Assembly: GCA_030616165.1 (NCBI GenBank)
Contig: JAUWXV010000251.1
Span: 1-5,311, forward strand
DNA: 5,311 bases
Origin: a bacterium
GTDB lineage: Bacteria; SM23-31; JAUVVT01
Direction: 5' to 3'
Positions within the stretch are counted from its first letter, which is position 1. Each line of letters opens with the position of its first letter. Below are positions 1 through 5,311 of the stretch, piece after piece. Made by a program: the position numbers and the translations under genes. The notes beneath the pieces are model-generated. The model was not told the origin of the DNA and searched no databases. It was given only the letters and a program-made list of their open reading frames with translations.

Positions 1-14
1 CCAAATTTTCCATA

Positions 15-32
15 GGCAGGTCCCTGTGCCTG
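15..32 (+). repeat. REP-like hairpin, degenerate copy
   Basis: The 18 bases GGCAGGTCCCTGTGCCTG are identical to 5276-5293. The stem GGCAGG...CCTG is shorter than in the right-hand copy and the GTAG head is missing. The loop TCCCTGTG is the one found in the other two copies. It is read inside the left RAYT as Q-A-Q-G-P-A. With the inverted element at 55-80 it forms a tail-to-tail pair 22 bases apart, an arrangement like that of BIMEs. Confidence 0.6.
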
Positions 33-54
33 AATATTTTCTGGATTCATCAAA

Positions 55-80
55 GGGCGCCCACAGGGAGGCGCCCCTAC
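55..80 (-). repeat. REP element with GTAG head inside the RAYT reading frame
   Basis: On the minus strand the head GTAG (80-77) is followed by a perfect 7-bp stem, GGGCGCC with GGCGCCC, closed by the 8-base loop TCCCTGTG. A GTAG tetranucleotide beside a hairpin is the known recognition layout of the E. coli REP transposase. The element is translated in the RAYT frame as V-G-A-P-P-C-G-R-P. Compared with 5271-5296, head and loop are identical while three stem positions change on both sides and still pair. Confidence 0.7.
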
Positions 81-369
81 ATTGTCGTTGTTTAATATAA
101 TAATCCCATGAAGATGATTGGGCATAACTATATGTTCACAGATCTCAACATTGGGGTAATATTTGGGTATTTCCTGCCATATCCTATCCACTATTTTTCC
201 AGCATCATTTAATTTCATTTCATCGTCTTCAATATCACCGAATAAACACAATTGCTTATTAACATATAAGGTTATATAATACATTCATTTTGAGGAATAA
301 TCATACCCTTTCAAACGAATTGACCATATATTATGTTTGTCTGGATTATATTTCATATCATACTCACAC

Positions 370-399
370 CTAGAAATTCTCCCACTCGTGCTTAATCCG
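370..399 (-). pseudogene. C-terminal relic C (RIKHEWENF, then TAG)
   Basis: Ten codons including the stop match the end of relics A (4914-5000) and B (1319-1381). Against relic A, AGA/CGG, ATC/ATT, AAA/AAG, GAA/GAG and TTT/TTC are all synonymous, so the ancestor was translated. The codon after ENF is TAG, while A has AAG and B has GGG there; the GTG TGA that follows matches the end of A. The relic begins 7 bases after the hydrolase stop codon, and its end supplies the weak ribosome site of the left RAYT. Confidence 0.6.
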
Positions 400-406
400 T
401 ACAGAT

Positions 407-1279
407 TTATTTTGAAGAATCTAAAAATTCTTGAATTGTCTCCTCCAGAAGGCTATTAAATTCATCCGTGACTTCCCACATAAGCAGATGTCCGACATTT
501 TTGATTATTTTTGCTTTGAAGTATGGTGTATAATCTCGGATTAAATCAATATCCGGTATACGCTGATCCGAATTTATACAGCTAATAGGAATTTTTATTA
601 ACTTTAGATCGTTTACCTGATCTTCTGACATCCATAAATAAGTTGATCTTAATGATTCTTCCCAGCCATGTTTTTGTGCTGAGTTTAACTGGTCAATAAA
701 ATCGGAAATAATATCATCTTCAACATCTCTAACAAACCAAGCCCGCATCATCTCTTCGGTGGGATTATTTACAAGATTCATGAAACTATTAACTTGATTA
801 TCTATTTGTTCCTCAGTCATTTTTTGTCCTACATCATGCAGCATATCTATTGGAATGATCCCAACTACTTTTCTTGGTATCTGAATTGCAGTTTTTAAAA
901 CAACCGGAGTTCCCATAGAATAACCAACAAGAATTACATTATCGATATTAAGTTGATTTATCACCGCAACAACATCTTTTGCGAATGCATCCATCGTCCA
1001 GTTGTTGCGAATGTTGCTTGATTCCCCAAATCCTGCAAGATCTATAGCTATGACTTTATATTTGTCCGAAAAATAATCCATTTGTACGTCCCAGTTAGTA
1101 CGATTTCCACTCCAGCCATGCACAAAAACCAGTGCCGGTTCCCCTTCTCCCTGAACATCGAATCTGATTTCTACACCATCAGCTGAGATTGCGACGTTTT
1201 CGGATTCAGTAGAACAACTTATAAATAAGGCTATTCCTAATATGAGGATTGCGGACAAGACCTTCACTATGCCTCGCAT
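407..1279 (-). CDS. alpha/beta-hydrolase fold lipoprotein
   Basis: This 290-residue protein is a predicted secreted serine hydrolase. It starts with a hydrophobic signal segment (residues 4-20) ending in a probable lipobox FISC with Cys22, so it is likely lipid-anchored in the envelope. The fold core follows in order: the oxyanion segment VFVHGWSG (52-58), DLAGFGESS (80-88), the nucleophile elbow GYSMG with Ser121, a helical cap (about 145-215), a probable acid Asp238 in NSDQRIPD (Asp243 is an alternative), and the catalytic His264 in VGHLLMWE. The triad is complete and the length is normal for the family. Esterases, lactonases, haloalkane-type hydrolases and S33-like peptidases share this pattern, so no substrate is assigned. 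The ATG at 1279 is supported by GGAGG five bases upstream. It has its own predicted promoter (1411-1438) and lies 440 bases from the M16 genes, so cotranscription with them is not required. Confidence 0.9.
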   Translation of the reverse strand: MRGIVKVLSAILILGIALFISCSTESENVAISADGVEIRFDVQGEGEPALVFVHGWSGNRTNWDVQMDYFSDKYKVIAIDLAGFGESSNIRNNWTMDAFAKDVVAVINQLNIDNVILVGYSMGTPVVLKTAIQIPRKVVGIIPIDMLHDVGQKMTEEQIDNQVNSFMNLVNNPTEEMMRAWFVRDVEDDIISDFIDQLNSAQKHGWEESLRSTYLWMSEDQVNDLKLIKIPISCINSDQRIPDIDLIRDYTPYFKAKIIKNVGHLLMWEVTDEFNSLLEETIQEFLDSSK

Positions 1280-1284
1280 TTTTG

Positions 1285-1289
1285 CCTCC
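1285..1289 (-). promoter_or_regulatory. ribosome binding site of the hydrolase
   Basis: GGAGG on the minus strand, 5 bases before the ATG at 1279. It fixes the start codon at the head of the signal peptide. Confidence 0.8.
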
Positions 1290-1318
1290 TTTCTATGTTT
1301 TATTGAAACTCTTTTTTA

Positions 1319-1381
1319 TTACACCCCAAAATTCTCCCACTCATACTTGACTCTTTCCATGAGTTTTTTTAACCGCTCCTC
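1319..1381 (-). pseudogene. C-terminal relic B (EERLKKLMERVKYEWENFGV, then TAA)
   Basis: Twenty codons plus stop are homologous to relic A. The frame stays open upstream to 1438 (just after a TGA), but the residues before EERLKK no longer resemble A, so only this core is marked. Third-position changes relative to A (AAA/AAG, TAC/TAT, GAA/GAG) show the ancestor was coding. The highly charged tail with the EW-EN-F ending resembles the extreme C-terminus of TPR-containing kinase- or cyclase-like proteins as I remember them; that assignment is weak. It lies 40 bases before the hydrolase start, inside its predicted 5' leader. Confidence 0.6.
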
Positions 1382-1410
1382 GCTGTTGCCATGAGACTTA
1401 GGAATAGAGG

Positions 1411-1438
1411 ATTTTATAATTGGAAATTGTTTTGTCAA
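1411..1438 (-). promoter_or_regulatory. predicted sigma70-type promoter for the hydrolase
   Basis: On the minus strand a perfect -35 box TTGACA (1433-1438) is followed by a 16-base spacer and TAAAAT (1411-1416), one mismatch from the -10 consensus. Transcription would begin near 1404, leaving a leader of about 125 bases that crosses relic B before the hydrolase ATG. Confidence 0.5.
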
Positions 1439-1509
1439 TCATAAAAACCTCTTAAATAAATGTTTTCTTAATTATAATAAAAAGAATAAACATTCAATAG
1501 TCTGAGAAA

Positions 1510-1532
1510 GTAGGACGAACGGCCATTCGACC
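1510..1532 (+). repeat. REP-like hairpin with GTAG head, imperfect stem
   Basis: A GTAG head (1510-1513) overlaps by one base a 7-bp stem, GGACGAA with TTCGACC, which has one A-A mismatch; the loop is CGGCCA. The layout matches the RAYT-associated elements at 55-80 and 5271-5296, but stem and loop differ, so it is a different or decayed subfamily. Confidence 0.5.
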
Positions 1533-1609
1533 CTCCTCAATTAGACAATCCAGGTTTGCAAACTAAACATTCATGCTCTTTCAGAAAACTACGAAACATG
1601 AAAATAATT

Positions 1610-1660
1610 GTAAGGACAGAACACTGCCTGCGCACTGTGCCTGCACTTTGTGTTCTGTCC
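1610..1660. repeat. 11-bp perfect inverted repeat, REP-like element or terminator
   Basis: GGACAGAACAC (1614-1624) pairs perfectly with GTGTTCTGTCC (1650-1660) around a 25-base loop that carries TGCCTGC twice. It is preceded by GTAA, close to the GTAG head of the REP elements, and the loop shares CTGTGCCTGC with the REP at 5271-5296. It lies 60 bases beyond the M16 operon stop and could end that transcript, but the sequence after it on the minus strand (TTACAATTATTTTC) is a poor U-tract. A dispersed repeat seems likelier than a dedicated intrinsic terminator. Confidence 0.5.
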
Positions 1661-1667
1661 CTGCATC

Positions 1668-1694
1668 TAATCTCTTTAATCTGTGTAATTCGTG
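1668..1694. repeat. three tandem 9-bp units (TAATCTCTT, TAATCTGTG, TAATTCGTG)
   Basis: Three consecutive 9-base units share TAAT at their start. Read on the minus strand it gives the phrase ACACAGATTA, which I recall as a recurrent intergenic repeat in several bacterial phyla. It adjoins the hairpin at 1610-1660 and may belong to the same mobile unit. Confidence 0.45.
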
Positions 1695-1719
1695 GTTCTA
1701 TTTTCGGGATAAAAATATA

Positions 1720-3213
1720 TTATTTTAAGGTTAAAATATTGACATTACCGTCCCCGTATTTTTTTGCCAGACCGTCGATCGCCCTTCCACCGAATATTTC
1801 CGCCATAGCGTCAATCGTCTGCTGATTCGGGAGAAGGTCGTCAGCTCCTGCACGGCATTCTTCAATATTGCCGGATACCATTATGACCATATTTTCCGGT
1901 TGGAGATACTTTTTAGCAATTCGCTGTATGTCTTCAACAGTAACCTTCTCGTAATTTTCCAGATATGTATCATAGTAATCCATTGGACGCCCGGTGAATT
2001 CAAGATTGGCAAAGTTTCTCAGAATCCTGCTGATAGAAGAAAACTGCGACGGGAAAGAATTTATACGTGCGGTTTTTGCAAATTTAAGGTCATCTTCACT
2101 GACAGGTTCATTTCTTATTTTTTCAATTTCATTAAGCATTAATTGAGAGGCAAAGACTACGGTTGAATTTTTTGTCTGGCAGGAGGCAGCAAAAGTCCCC
2201 GGGTAAAGAATTCCGCCTGAGAAACGTGAACCTGTAGAATAAGCAAGACCATGGTCCGAGCGGACTATTTTTGTTATGCGCGAGGAGAATGAACCACCTC
2301 CTAAAATGTAGTTCATGAGATCCACTGCCGGATAATCGGGATTATCTTGCATCAATCCAAGGTTTCCTATCCTTATAACTCCCTGGTTGGGAATAACTTC
2401 AGGCTGAATCATATAGACTCCTGCCTTTGCAGCCTGCTTGACTTCAGGAATTTCAGGTACGGCTTTTTCTGCGTTTTCCCATTTACCAAAGGTTTCTTCA
2501 AGTTTTTTCAGCATGTCAAACTTATTGAAGTCGCCGGACACTATAAGGATTGCATTGTTAGCGCCCCAGTATTTTTTGTGCCGGTTAATCAAGTCATCCC
2601 GGACGATGCCATTAACCATACTTTCTGTCTGCTGTGCGGTAATCGGTGAGTCTTCTCCGTAAACCAACTCGTTAAAAGTACGGCTCCCTACGGAGGAAAC
2701 ATTCTTATTCCTGTTGCGAATTCTGTTAATAGCGCTGTCTTTCTCCCTTCGAAGTTTATCTTCGGGAAATGCAGGATTATTTAAAATATCCATCCATATT
2801 TTTAATCCTTCATCCAAATGGCGCATATGTATGGACAGACTTGTGGCGGAAACAGACCCTGCCAGGAAATCCATTCTTTCGTTTATTTCTTCACCTGTCA
2901 TTGATGTTGTCCCGCCTGAACGCATGATAGTTTGAGTCATTCTTTCTACACCAAGTTTATCTTCGGGCTCGAGGAATGGTCCTGTTCTAACCATTAGTGA
3001 AGCATTAAACCATGGAATTTCATGGTCTTCGGCAATGTATACAACAATGCCGTTGGATAACTCCGTGCGGAATTCTCCGGGCTCAGGGGGTGAAAAAACT
3101 AATTTTTCATAAGTAAAATCTCCCGGACGTGGTCCCAAATGACTGGCACAAGAAGATACCAAAAGAGCAGCGAAAATCAGGAGCAGTGAAAATGCTTTAT
3201 ATTTCTTAAACAT
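1720..3213 (-). CDS. M16 peptidase-family lipoprotein without zinc site (non-catalytic subunit)
   Basis: This 497-residue protein has the two-lobed M16 fold but cannot bind zinc. The HxxEH site is replaced by E90-R-M-T-Q94 (in GVERMTQTIMRSGGT), and the distal ligand region REKDSAINR has Arg164 in place of the Glu. The C-terminal lobe keeps NYILGGGSFSSRITKIVR followed by SDHGLAY, with Arg318 and Tyr325 seven apart, the substrate-anchoring pair of active M16 enzymes. It is therefore the expected partner of the catalytic subunit encoded just upstream, 36 bases away in the same operon. The N-terminus is a lipoprotein signal with lipobox VSSC (Cys22), so the complex is probably tethered to a membrane facing the periplasm. 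The ATG at 3213 is chosen over the TTG at 3228 because that TTG overlaps the ribosome site and the ATG lies 8 bases after GGAGG. The last 40 residues are the least conserved-looking part. Confidence 0.92.
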   Translation of the reverse strand: MFKKYKAFSLLLIFAALLVSSCASHLGPRPGDFTYEKLVFSPPEPGEFRTELSNGIVVYIAEDHEIPWFNASLMVRTGPFLEPEDKLGVERMTQTIMRSGGTTSMTGEEINERMDFLAGSVSATSLSIHMRHLDEGLKIWMDILNNPAFPEDKLRREKDSAINRIRNRNKNVSSVGSRTFNELVYGEDSPITAQQTESMVNGIVRDDLINRHKKYWGANNAILIVSGDFNKFDMLKKLEETFGKWENAEKAVPEIPEVKQAAKAGVYMIQPEVIPNQGVIRIGNLGLMQDNPDYPAVDLMNYILGGGSFSSRITKIVRSDHGLAYSTGSRFSGGILYPGTFAASCQTKNSTVVFASQLMLNEIEKIRNEPVSEDDLKFAKTARINSFPSQFSSISRILRNFANLEFTGRPMDYYDTYLENYEKVTVEDIQRIAKKYLQPENMVIMVSGNIEECRAGADDLLPNQQTIDAMAEIFGGRAIDGLAKKYGDGNVNILTLK

Positions 3214-3221
3214 TTCTATAT

Positions 3222-3226
3222 CCTCC
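3222..3226 (-). promoter_or_regulatory. ribosome binding site deciding the start of the second M16 gene
   Basis: GGAGG on the minus strand with 8 bases to the ATG at 3213. The frame is also open from a TTG at 3228, but that codon overlaps this site and would add five residues before the signal peptide. Confidence 0.8.
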
Positions 3227-3249
3227 AATTTATAAATTTAAACGATTTA

Positions 3250-4794
3250 TCATTTTTTGCGCTCTAAAATGCCTGTAACGCTGTTTCCTTTTGTAAGATA
3301 TTTTTCTGCAACTCTCATCATATCGTCAAAAGTAACAGCCATTCGCTGTTTATACTGTTCTTCGATAAACTGCCATTTATACGCAGTCTCCATTCTTACC
3401 AATGTACCTGCGATACCAGTGCCTCGTAAACTGCGTAGAAAAGAGGCTTCAACAGAATTTTTAACTCTCTGAAGCAGCTCTTCATCAAAATGTTTACTTT
3501 TGGCGTTTTCTATATATGTCCAGAGCTTATTTTCAATGGAATCAGGCGATACTACAGCAATATTTTTTCGTTCTTTTGTTGTGGCTCTGACTGTAAATGA
3601 ACCGTCGTACATTGAATTTGAAGCAGACGCAGAAACAGATGTCGCAATTTCGTTTTCCTCAACCATATCCATATACATATCGCCCGTTCGCGCACTCATA
3701 ACCCTGCCGAGCATATATAACGGCGCCAGGTCATCGTGCCAGAGGGGTGGAATATGGAACATTATTGTTACATATGGATTGGTTTCATCTTTACCGTAAA
3801 CACGTTTCTCGATATATGGCACGTCAAAATCAGGACCAACTGTTCGTTTGTAATATTCCGGTGAAGGTTCTTCGGTTCTCACCCGCGGAGATTTACCTTC
3901 TGGTTTAATAGTACCAAAATATTTTTGAACAATCGCCATAACTTTATCTACATCAATATCCCCTGCCATCACCAGCGTAGCATTATCGGGACGGTAATAT
4001 TCTTCCCGGAATTCAATCATATCTTGTCTGGTCGTACTTAATATGTCTGACATCCATCCAATAACGGACCAGGAATATGGACTTGCCGCATAAAAAGTAG
4101 CATTTAACTGCTCCCTGAAGAAATATCCGGGTCTGTTTTCACTCATCCGGCGTTCTTCGGCAATCACATCTCTTTCAGAATAAAATTCTCTAAATACTGG
4201 ATTTCCCATTCTGTCTGCTTCAAGAGCAAGAAACAATTCAATTTTGTTTTTCGGCAGGGTTACATAGTATTGTGTCATCTCTCTTCCCGTCGAGGCGTTG
4301 ATCCCGGTTCCGCCGGCTTCCTGGTAGGCGCCCCATAACTCATCAGAAATAATAGTTTCCTTTCTCTGAAGTTCAATGAGTTCAGCAATCTGCGCTTTCC
4401 ACTCAATAATCTTATTTTCATCGCGCCCCTTAACCTTGGATTCTTCTTCAACCACTTTTTCCATGATTTCATCAATTTGACGAATAATATCCAGGTCTTT
4501 ATCAAGCATACCCGGTTTAATACCCATTGAATAGGTTCCTTTGAACATCATATGTTCATGAAAATGAGAGATACCCGTAATTCCGGGACGCTCGTTTACC
4601 GAACCAACACGGTAAGCAAGAATACTCCTTATCAATGGAGCCTGCGGGCGTTTGACCATCAGTACTTTAAGACCGTTATCCAATACTCTTTCTATGACCT
4701 GGTCGGTAAGGCTTAAATCCTGCCCCACTGCAACAGATATACAGAATAACATGAAAATCATAATGGTCAAAAATAAAATTTTCGATTTCTTCAT
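3250..4794 (-). CDS. zinc metallopeptidase, M16 family, catalytic subunit
   Basis: A 514-residue exported peptidase. A signal peptide (about 1-24, ending SVAVG before QD) carries it to the periplasm. The zinc site is H77-F-H-E80-H81 in GISHFHEHMMFKGT, with Glu80 as the base. The third ligand is probably Glu214 in ERDVIAEERR, seven residues after Glu207, the usual M16 spacing. GGTGINASTGREMTQYYVTLP (161-181, minus its edges) and GWMSDIL (246-252) are typical of the subfamily. Between the zinc motif and residue 160 is a charged, probably coiled-coil insertion (about 95-158), longer than in short M16B enzymes. In the C-terminal lobe the usual Arg and Tyr are Val378 and Thr385 (VEENEIAT), so the partner encoded downstream should supply them. 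The family cleaves peptides inside a closed chamber. The ATG at 4794 follows GGAGG by 5 bases, and the gene ends with TGA followed directly by TAA. It is the first gene of the operon. Confidence 0.95.
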   Translation of the reverse strand: MKKSKILFLTIMIFMLFCISVAVGQDLSLTDQVIERVLDNGLKVLMVKRPQAPLIRSILAYRVGSVNERPGITGISHFHEHMMFKGTYSMGIKPGMLDKDLDIIRQIDEIMEKVVEEESKVKGRDENKIIEWKAQIAELIELQRKETIISDELWGAYQEAGGTGINASTGREMTQYYVTLPKNKIELFLALEADRMGNPVFREFYSERDVIAEERRMSENRPGYFFREQLNATFYAASPYSWSVIGWMSDILSTTRQDMIEFREEYYRPDNATLVMAGDIDVDKVMAIVQKYFGTIKPEGKSPRVRTEEPSPEYYKRTVGPDFDVPYIEKRVYGKDETNPYVTIMFHIPPLWHDDLAPLYMLGRVMSARTGDMYMDMVEENEIATSVSASASNSMYDGSFTVRATTKERKNIAVVSPDSIENKLWTYIENAKSKHFDEELLQRVKNSVEASFLRSLRGTGIAGTLVRMETAYKWQFIEEQYKQRMAVTFDDMMRVAEKYLTKGNSVTGILERKK

Positions 4795-4893: not shown

Positions 4894-4913
4894 AATACTT
4901 TTAAATTAAGTTT

Positions 4914-5000
4914 TCACACCTTAAAATTCTCCCATTCGTATTTGATTCTTTCCATGAGTTTTTTGAACCGCTCCTCACCTCGGATGTTTTCGAGGACATT
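4914..5000 (-). pseudogene. C-terminal relic A (28 codons ending MERIKYEWENFKV)
   Basis: After an in-frame TAA at 5001-5003 the minus strand reads NVLENIRGEERFKKL, then MERIKYEWENFKV and TGA. It has no start codon upstream of the internal Met and no ribosome site, so it is the leftover C-terminus of a larger gene. It is the longest-conserved of three homologous relics in the window. The ENIRGEERFKKLMERI pattern resembles the short helix that closes TPR arrays in some kinase- or cyclase-like proteins (LR-DPRF-KLL); this resemblance is from memory and low-confidence. It starts 23 bases after the stop of the right-hand RAYT. Confidence 0.6.
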
Positions 5001-5023: not shown

Positions 5024-5311
5024 TCATTTATTATTACTCCAATTTTTTGGATTCTCTTCGTCTGTTTCCCAATTTATTGGATTATTTTTGATGTATTCAC
5101 GAATTCTATTTATTTCTTTTTCATCTCGAATAATATGTTCGTAATAATTTCGTTGCCACAATTTTTTTTGAAATGGTTTCCATTGATGGTTTCGGACACC
5201 AAGGATATATTGATACATTGTGAATGATTCAAATCGTCCAACTACATCCCCCAATGATAATCTTCCGTCCGTAGGGGCAGGTCCCTGTGCCTGCCCATAT
5301 TTTCCATTGGC
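5024..5311 (-). CDS. REP-associated tyrosine transposase (RAYT), C-terminal half, cut by the window edge
   Basis: The frame is open from the right edge (95 codons visible) and ends with TGA followed by TAA. It has the family's C-terminal pattern: LGDVVGRFESFT (20-31), GVRNHQWKPF (38-47), LWQRNYYEHIIRDEKE (51-66) and IREYIKNNPINW. The nucleophilic Tyr of these HUH enzymes should lie in the helix after VVGRF; Tyr33 and Tyr35 are the candidates, but I cannot choose between them. The HUH motif is outside the window. A TTG at 5252-5254 could be read as a start, but homologous residues continue upstream of it, so the gene is partial and not short. Its first visible residues are encoded by a REP element. 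It is a second copy, distinct from the broken RAYT at the left edge, which it follows in the same orientation. Confidence 0.85.
   Translation of the reverse strand, partial: ANGKYGQAQGPAPTDGRLSLGDVVGRFESFTMYQYILGVRNHQWKPFQKKLWQRNYYEHIIRDEKEINRIREYIKNNPINWETDEENPKNWSNNK
5271..5296 (+). repeat. REP element with GTAG head inside the right-hand RAYT
   Basis: The head GTAG (5271-5274) is followed by a perfect 7-bp stem, GGGCAGG with CCTGCCC, and the loop TCCCTGTG (5282-5289). Eighteen of its bases recur at 15-32. The element is antisense to the RAYT and is translated there as G-Q-A-Q-G-P-A-P-T, in the same frame as in the left RAYT. Confidence 0.7.

Follow-up and report, generated by a model that had tools for sequence, protein, structure and literature searches.

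The window, the whole stretch of DNA that was analysed, is the entire 5311-base contig C273 of an assembly of 343 contigs (3.74 Mb, completeness 90%). A piece of a RAYT (TnpA-REP) gene with a REP hairpin lies at each end, and a hydrolase gene and two peptidase genes lie between. The features are as follows.

3-284, minus strand: N-terminal portion of a RAYT gene, including the HUH motif MPNHLHG and truncated by the contig end (open reading frame, own-genome search)
15-32, plus strand: third stem-loop, of the right type but headless (GTAG lost), GGCAGG TCCCTGTG CCTG (direct repeat, C316 array)
55-80, minus strand: left REP element, GTAG GGGCGCC TCCCTGTG GGCGCCC (sequence and fold; identical copies on contigs C199 and C316)
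407-1279: alpha/beta hydrolase gene (Pfam PF00561)
1720-3228 and 3250-4794: two adjacent M16 peptidase genes (Pfam PF05193/PF00675)
5024-5311, minus strand: C-terminal portion of a second RAYT copy, including the Tyr motif YIKNNP and truncated by the contig end (open reading frame)
5271-5296, plus strand: right REP element, GTAG GGGCAGG TCCCTGTG CCTGCCC (sequence and fold; identical copy on C316)

The hydrolase and peptidase genes are ordinary and have no visible relation to the REPs. A coding-type repeat, reading approximately ERxKKLMERVKYEWENF on the reverse strand, occurs three times in the window (364-396, 1316-1381 and 4911-4976) and eight times in the genome. The RAYT of genome G005 at locus L114 ends in a similar peptide, LKKLMERIKHEWENF, and the repeat has the look of a C-terminal tail that is mobile or has been shuffled. 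An imperfect inverted repeat, GGACAGAACAC...GTGTTCTGTCC, spans 1600-1674 and shares its stem sequence with the double-foot REP GTAGGGACAGAACAGTGTTCTGTCCCTAC found at a RAYT on C302; it is probably a decayed REP from another family.

Contig ends and the REP array

The fragment at 5024-5311, which is only part of a gene, matched NCBIfam NF047646 (REP_Tyr_transpos) with E 2.8e-9 and Pfam Y1_Tnp with 0.0033, both below the model cut-offs. In the left copy, an in-frame TGA stands just upstream of the ATG at position 284; because of this stop in the upstream frame, the left copy is probably a pseudogene. The start of C199 is identical to the first ~140 bases of the window, and the likeness continues through the gene start. 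The linker is uninterrupted on C316, where a single RAYT frame contains the left (62-87, plus strand) and right (140-165, minus strand) elements together with a headless unit, the array reading NVGAPPCGRPLMNPENIQAQGPAYGKFGQAQGPAPTDG. Since C316 holds both elements in one gene, the ends of the window are, on this comparison of contigs, assembly breaks within a repeated RAYT gene. The two elements accordingly belong to one array, as its left and right halves, and form a single in-frame, outward-facing inverted REP dimer.

An earlier note on this DNA had compared the elements as one site in two RAYT genes, a comparison that must give way to one between the halves of a dimer. Its description of the elements themselves is exact: 55-80 and 5271-5296 have the GTAG head, the 7-bp stem length and the loop TCCCTGTG in common, and three stem positions are changed on both arms with pairing kept; the headless copy at 15-32 is absent from it. 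Its statement that they lie inside RAYT frames without breaking them holds for the REP segment and fails for the left gene as a whole, owing to the TGA.

The left element encodes VGAPPCGRP in frame, and the right element encodes GQAQGPAPT from the coding (minus) strand; the headless copy belongs to a tandem repeat encoding (G/I)QAQGPA(Y/N)GK(F/Y). Each 26-nt element alone folds as a 7-bp hairpin under DNA parameters (left -9.5 and right -7.9 kcal/mol, with z-scores of -3.3 and -2.7). The window holds two GTAG-headed 7-bp hairpins, compared with a mean of 0.011 and a maximum of 1 in 1000 dinucleotide shuffles; these shuffles, together with permuted-head controls across RAYT genes, rule out chance hairpins. 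A relative in G005 from another family of the same class (L109) carries the same array with one further tandem unit. Nucleotide identity between L097 and L109 is 98% in the REP codons and 84% in the remainder.

Internal REPs across RAYT genes and in the source genome

The wider sample comprised 80 RAYT loci from many phyla together with loci of the window's own class, giving 82 full-length genes; a scan of viral contigs yielded only two relatives. A GTAG hairpin of at least 7 bp lies within the linker between HUH and Tyr in 65 of the 82 genes. Matches number 115 over 17.4 kb of linker, whereas the sequence upstream of HUH yields 10 over 22.7 kb and that downstream of Tyr yields 3 over 11.1 kb. 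Permuted control heads were found in at most 10 genes each, except for TAGG, which overlaps GTAGG. By the 7-bp criterion, 17 of the 82 genes have no internal hairpin, indicating that it is not essential; linkers without the REP segment occur in L100, L191 and L201.

Of 31 internal pairs, 30 face outward. Both elements of a gene have the same loop in 18 of 31, compared with 3.0 after shuffling (0 of 20000 shuffles as high). The same 7-nt stem arm is found left and right in 5 of 31 (1.8 shuffled; 419 of 20000 as high), and agreement judged by the inner three bases is 5 versus 2.9 shuffled, suggesting that left and right stems are coupled weakly, if at all. Elements standing alone were also found, both single ones and double-foot ones. 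An internal stem recurs in a flanking REP in 17 of 33 genes, versus 2.9 shuffled (0 of 20000 as high); where flanking REPs exist, the internal hairpins thus often match their type. In 24 of the 48 internal-REP genes with at least 600 bp on both sides, no GTAG hairpin flanks the gene within 600 bp, which often leaves the internal copy as the sole one nearby. On a tree of 81 RAYTs, presence or absence of the internal REP changes about 15 times, a weak count given that 54 of the 78 inner branches are open.

The earlier note had called for a search of the genome for further copies. A relaxed pattern, GTAGGGGCNNNNCCCTGTGNNNGCCC with up to 3 mismatches, does find them (51 copies, 42 of them outside RAYT genes; 0 for the reversed control), and GTAG-headed hairpins at the gene together with many genome copies are a trait of RAYT membership. 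The genome-wide search for GTAGGGGC with the exact loop TCCCTGTG gave only 5 copies, all within RAYT genes; recent spread of the exact type is therefore not seen.

Seven other places in the genome exceed the Pfam Y1_Tnp cut-off, and several of its other RAYTs contain internal hairpins of different types. The internal hairpins on C108 (GGGCACAG, its head decayed to GCAG) and C329 (AGACGTTG) are of the type of their flanks. The RAYT on C268 has GGGCGAAC; in that at C302:8400, GGGCGGA precedes and GGGCGGG follows the HUH motif. The second of the RAYT copies on C182 has no internal hairpin.

The pattern search also returned nine copies of a non-pairing GAA/CGT inner type; two of these, when read out, have kept the outer 8-bp stem and have a larger loop. 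An expanded-loop variant of the GGGCGAAC REP, with loop CCCTGTGCGTGCACTGTGT and the outer 8-bp stem kept, occurs in the same genome (for example at L079 and L086). At L107 (C42:1-3500), a long transposase-like open reading frame (916-2661, minus strand) lies between copies of the same two hairpins (769-794/856-878 and 2723-2745/2781-2806), as if an IS sits in a duplicated REP cluster.

Stem pairing and codon choice

Covariation between the window's two elements had been taken as evidence for selection on folding. Two elements alone are insufficient for this, and it is the wider sample that provides the support. When elements were picked by head and loop only, blind to pairing (24 genes of the wider set), all 8 positions were paired in 26 of 31 distinct elements. 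Distinct inner arms were fully paired in 13 of 17 cases, versus 2.2 in shuffles that preserve column make-up and ignore relatedness and hence give no exact probabilities. Stem covariation is also found within the source genome, where 6 of 11 inner-stem types are fully Watson-Crick (1.0 shuffled). Individual cases show it plainly: in the same linker, two Nodosilinea sister genes have GGGCTTTGC/GCAAAGCCC (L188) and GGGCATTGC/GCAATGCCC (L189).

One and the same hairpin DNA appears in different reading phases, giving different peptides, and GTAG is absent from the phase that would yield a TAG stop among the internal elements. For linker 'VG' dipeptides, defined by residue, the V codon is GTA in 59 of 99 (60%), versus 87 of 530 (16%) in the core, and the G codon is GGG in 64 of 99 (65%), versus 144 of 559 (26%). 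Identical residues use the same codon in 149 of 157 REP positions versus 512 of 1110 core positions in two four-gene groups, which were picked for a shared REP type and are thus biased, and whose pairs are not independent. In the L097/L109 pair alone, the same-codon contrast is not significant (17/18 versus 62/78, p 0.18). This codon choice places the constraint on the DNA. The central proposal of the earlier note, that the RAYT gene carries in frame REP hairpins selected for folding, is supported by both the covariation and the codon tests. Ordinary conserved RAYT protein, the alternative that the note itself had raised, does not fit the different phases and peptides or the biased codons.

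A substrate within the gene, its alternatives and known REP systems

RAYTs act on folded single-stranded DNA. Our comparisons show that the hairpins are kept as DNA structures, with GTAG as the head, one loop common to the elements of a gene and a paired stem of free sequence. We think it rather likely that the internal dimer is the enzyme's own substrate kept in the gene. The linker between HUH and Tyr is encoded by an in-frame, outward-facing REP hairpin dimer and would tolerate the hairpins, being a peripheral loop of the protein (peripheral position per PMC6006769). The internal hairpins may then serve the encoded enzyme as its single-stranded DNA substrate, recognized through hairpin and loop and with cutting guided by GTAG. 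A substrate inside the gene would keep the enzyme and its cognate REP together on transfer between genomes, one gene constituting a self-contained REPtron. A fixed head, a gene-tied loop and a free but paired stem are what published assays of a perfect-palindrome TnpAREP would predict: GTAG mutations reduce or abolish cleavage, which also depends critically on one loop base and is affected or nearly eliminated by mismatches in the stem, and the effect of stem sequence is milder (PMC8266576).

As the reason for keeping the hairpins, we prefer co-transfer of enzyme and substrate over self-insertion or regulation because half of the testable internal-REP genes lack flanking REPs within 600 bp. 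All three reasons are mutually compatible. An extension that we regard as tentative, and on balance unlikely, is that a RAYT gene with an internal dimer is an enzyme-plus-substrate unit in which the shared loop sets specificity, the stems are free and the internal copy seeds genomic REP families after transfer.

The strongest competitor is tolerated self-insertion, in which RAYTs spread REPs, the gene closest to the enzyme is often struck and only stop-free insertions in the flexible linker survive; the hairpins would be functionless in the gene and would resemble genomic REPs through repeated insertion or conversion. We consider this possible, though clearly the lesser candidate. In-frame REPs are also present in other genes of published genomes (PMC3733652), GTAG never occupies the TAG-stop phase, several phases and REP types are represented with internal types matching the flanks, and presence changes about 15 times on the weakly resolved tree. 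Set against these observations, retention in 65 of 82 genes from many phyla looks like maintenance rather than decay, and near-perfect pairing, the outward orientation of 30 of 31 pairs and the DNA-level codon constraint likewise suggest maintenance. Continuous re-insertion could mimic such apparent maintenance.

Regulation, in which RAYT would hold down its own expression by binding the hairpins in the mRNA or in the gene DNA, appears improbable. The elements lie within a transcribed gene and fold stably, and binding of such hairpins in single-stranded DNA has been reported for one TnpAREP (PMC8266576); the double- and single-foot types, the orientation on both strands and the mid-gene position nevertheless indicate no particular RNA mechanism. 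It is about equally hard to credit that the selected structure is a long, REPIN-like hairpin pairing the left element of the dimer with the right. On either strand, the full C316 array does pair left with right when folded to its energy minimum, and identical loops in opposite orientation are mutually complementary, with loop identity in excess. Yet the same stems occur in only 5 of 31 genes, left-right pairing is broken exactly where each element pairs with itself, and single and double-foot elements also stand alone; the stem differences thus disfavour the long hairpin as the selected unit even though it is the minimum-energy fold. The idea that different stems serve to block left-right pairing also found no support, as the long hairpin is still predicted and the stem difference is not above chance. 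Finally, the recurrence of VGA...P and ...APT peptides in the linker might suggest ordinary conserved transposase sequence with palindromes as peptide by-products, a highly implausible account that is rejected by the phase and synonymous-codon tests and is at odds with the existence of REP-less linkers.

The reading of the internal dimer as the enzyme's own substrate bears on how REP families begin and on how each stays matched to its RAYT. Hairpin-carrying genes form a natural data set with enzyme and substrate in one sequence, from which loop-enzyme coevolution may be read directly. That the loop is shared, the stem free but paired and the internal type often that of the flanks makes testable recognition rules out of what was a known curiosity. 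We regard these loop, stem and flank statistics as a modest addition, not found in the papers searched for them.

The family aligns with the HUH motif MPNHLHG and the catalytic motif YIKNNP (Y---NP) in L097. L109 matched NF047646 with E 9.6e-13 and 48 bits, below the 80-bit cut-off, and the sole match of the family profile among PDB sequences was 4er8, TnpArep. The trait itself is known: it is the 'internal REP' of TnpAREP subclass 2.4, which stands out for REPs that lie in frame between HuH and Y, within a peripheral extension, and has a published median HuH-Y distance of 88 (Quentin et al., 2018; PMC6006769). The corresponding median in our 82 genes is 94.5 (105 in L097 and 116 in L109), and both L097 and L109 have the in-frame REP. 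The window RAYT appears subclass 2.4-like, assigned by traits rather than by the published profiles. It shares with that subclass the in-frame REPs between HuH and Y, the GTAG heads, a stem base of three G-C pairs, the double-foot type in sister genes and a patchy distribution across phyla (PMC6006769). It differs in its new host class, in the same loop on different stems and in the headless tandem third unit.

Other systems share part of this arrangement. For GTAG families, Di Nocera et al. (2013; PMC3733652) described REP heterodimers whose stems differ and which are likewise inverted pairs with a spacer of tens of bases; those dimers are mainly extragenic, whereas the present one is coding and lies inside the transposase gene. 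Rickettsia palindromic elements are also palindromes in frame within coding genes, although their known carriers are many unrelated genes (PMC3733652) and the carrier here is the transposase itself. Group 3 TnpAREP of S. maltophilia and Marinomonas, the only group from which the biochemistry comes, has GTAG, a perfect stem, an important loop and a lesser role of stem sequence in common with our family, whereas its REPs have 5-8 bp stems and lie at gene flanks (Corneloup et al., 2021; PMC8266576). To these systems the window adds a RAYT member whose bacterial class has been poorly sampled, and it illustrates what selection appears to preserve: head, loop and stem pairing.
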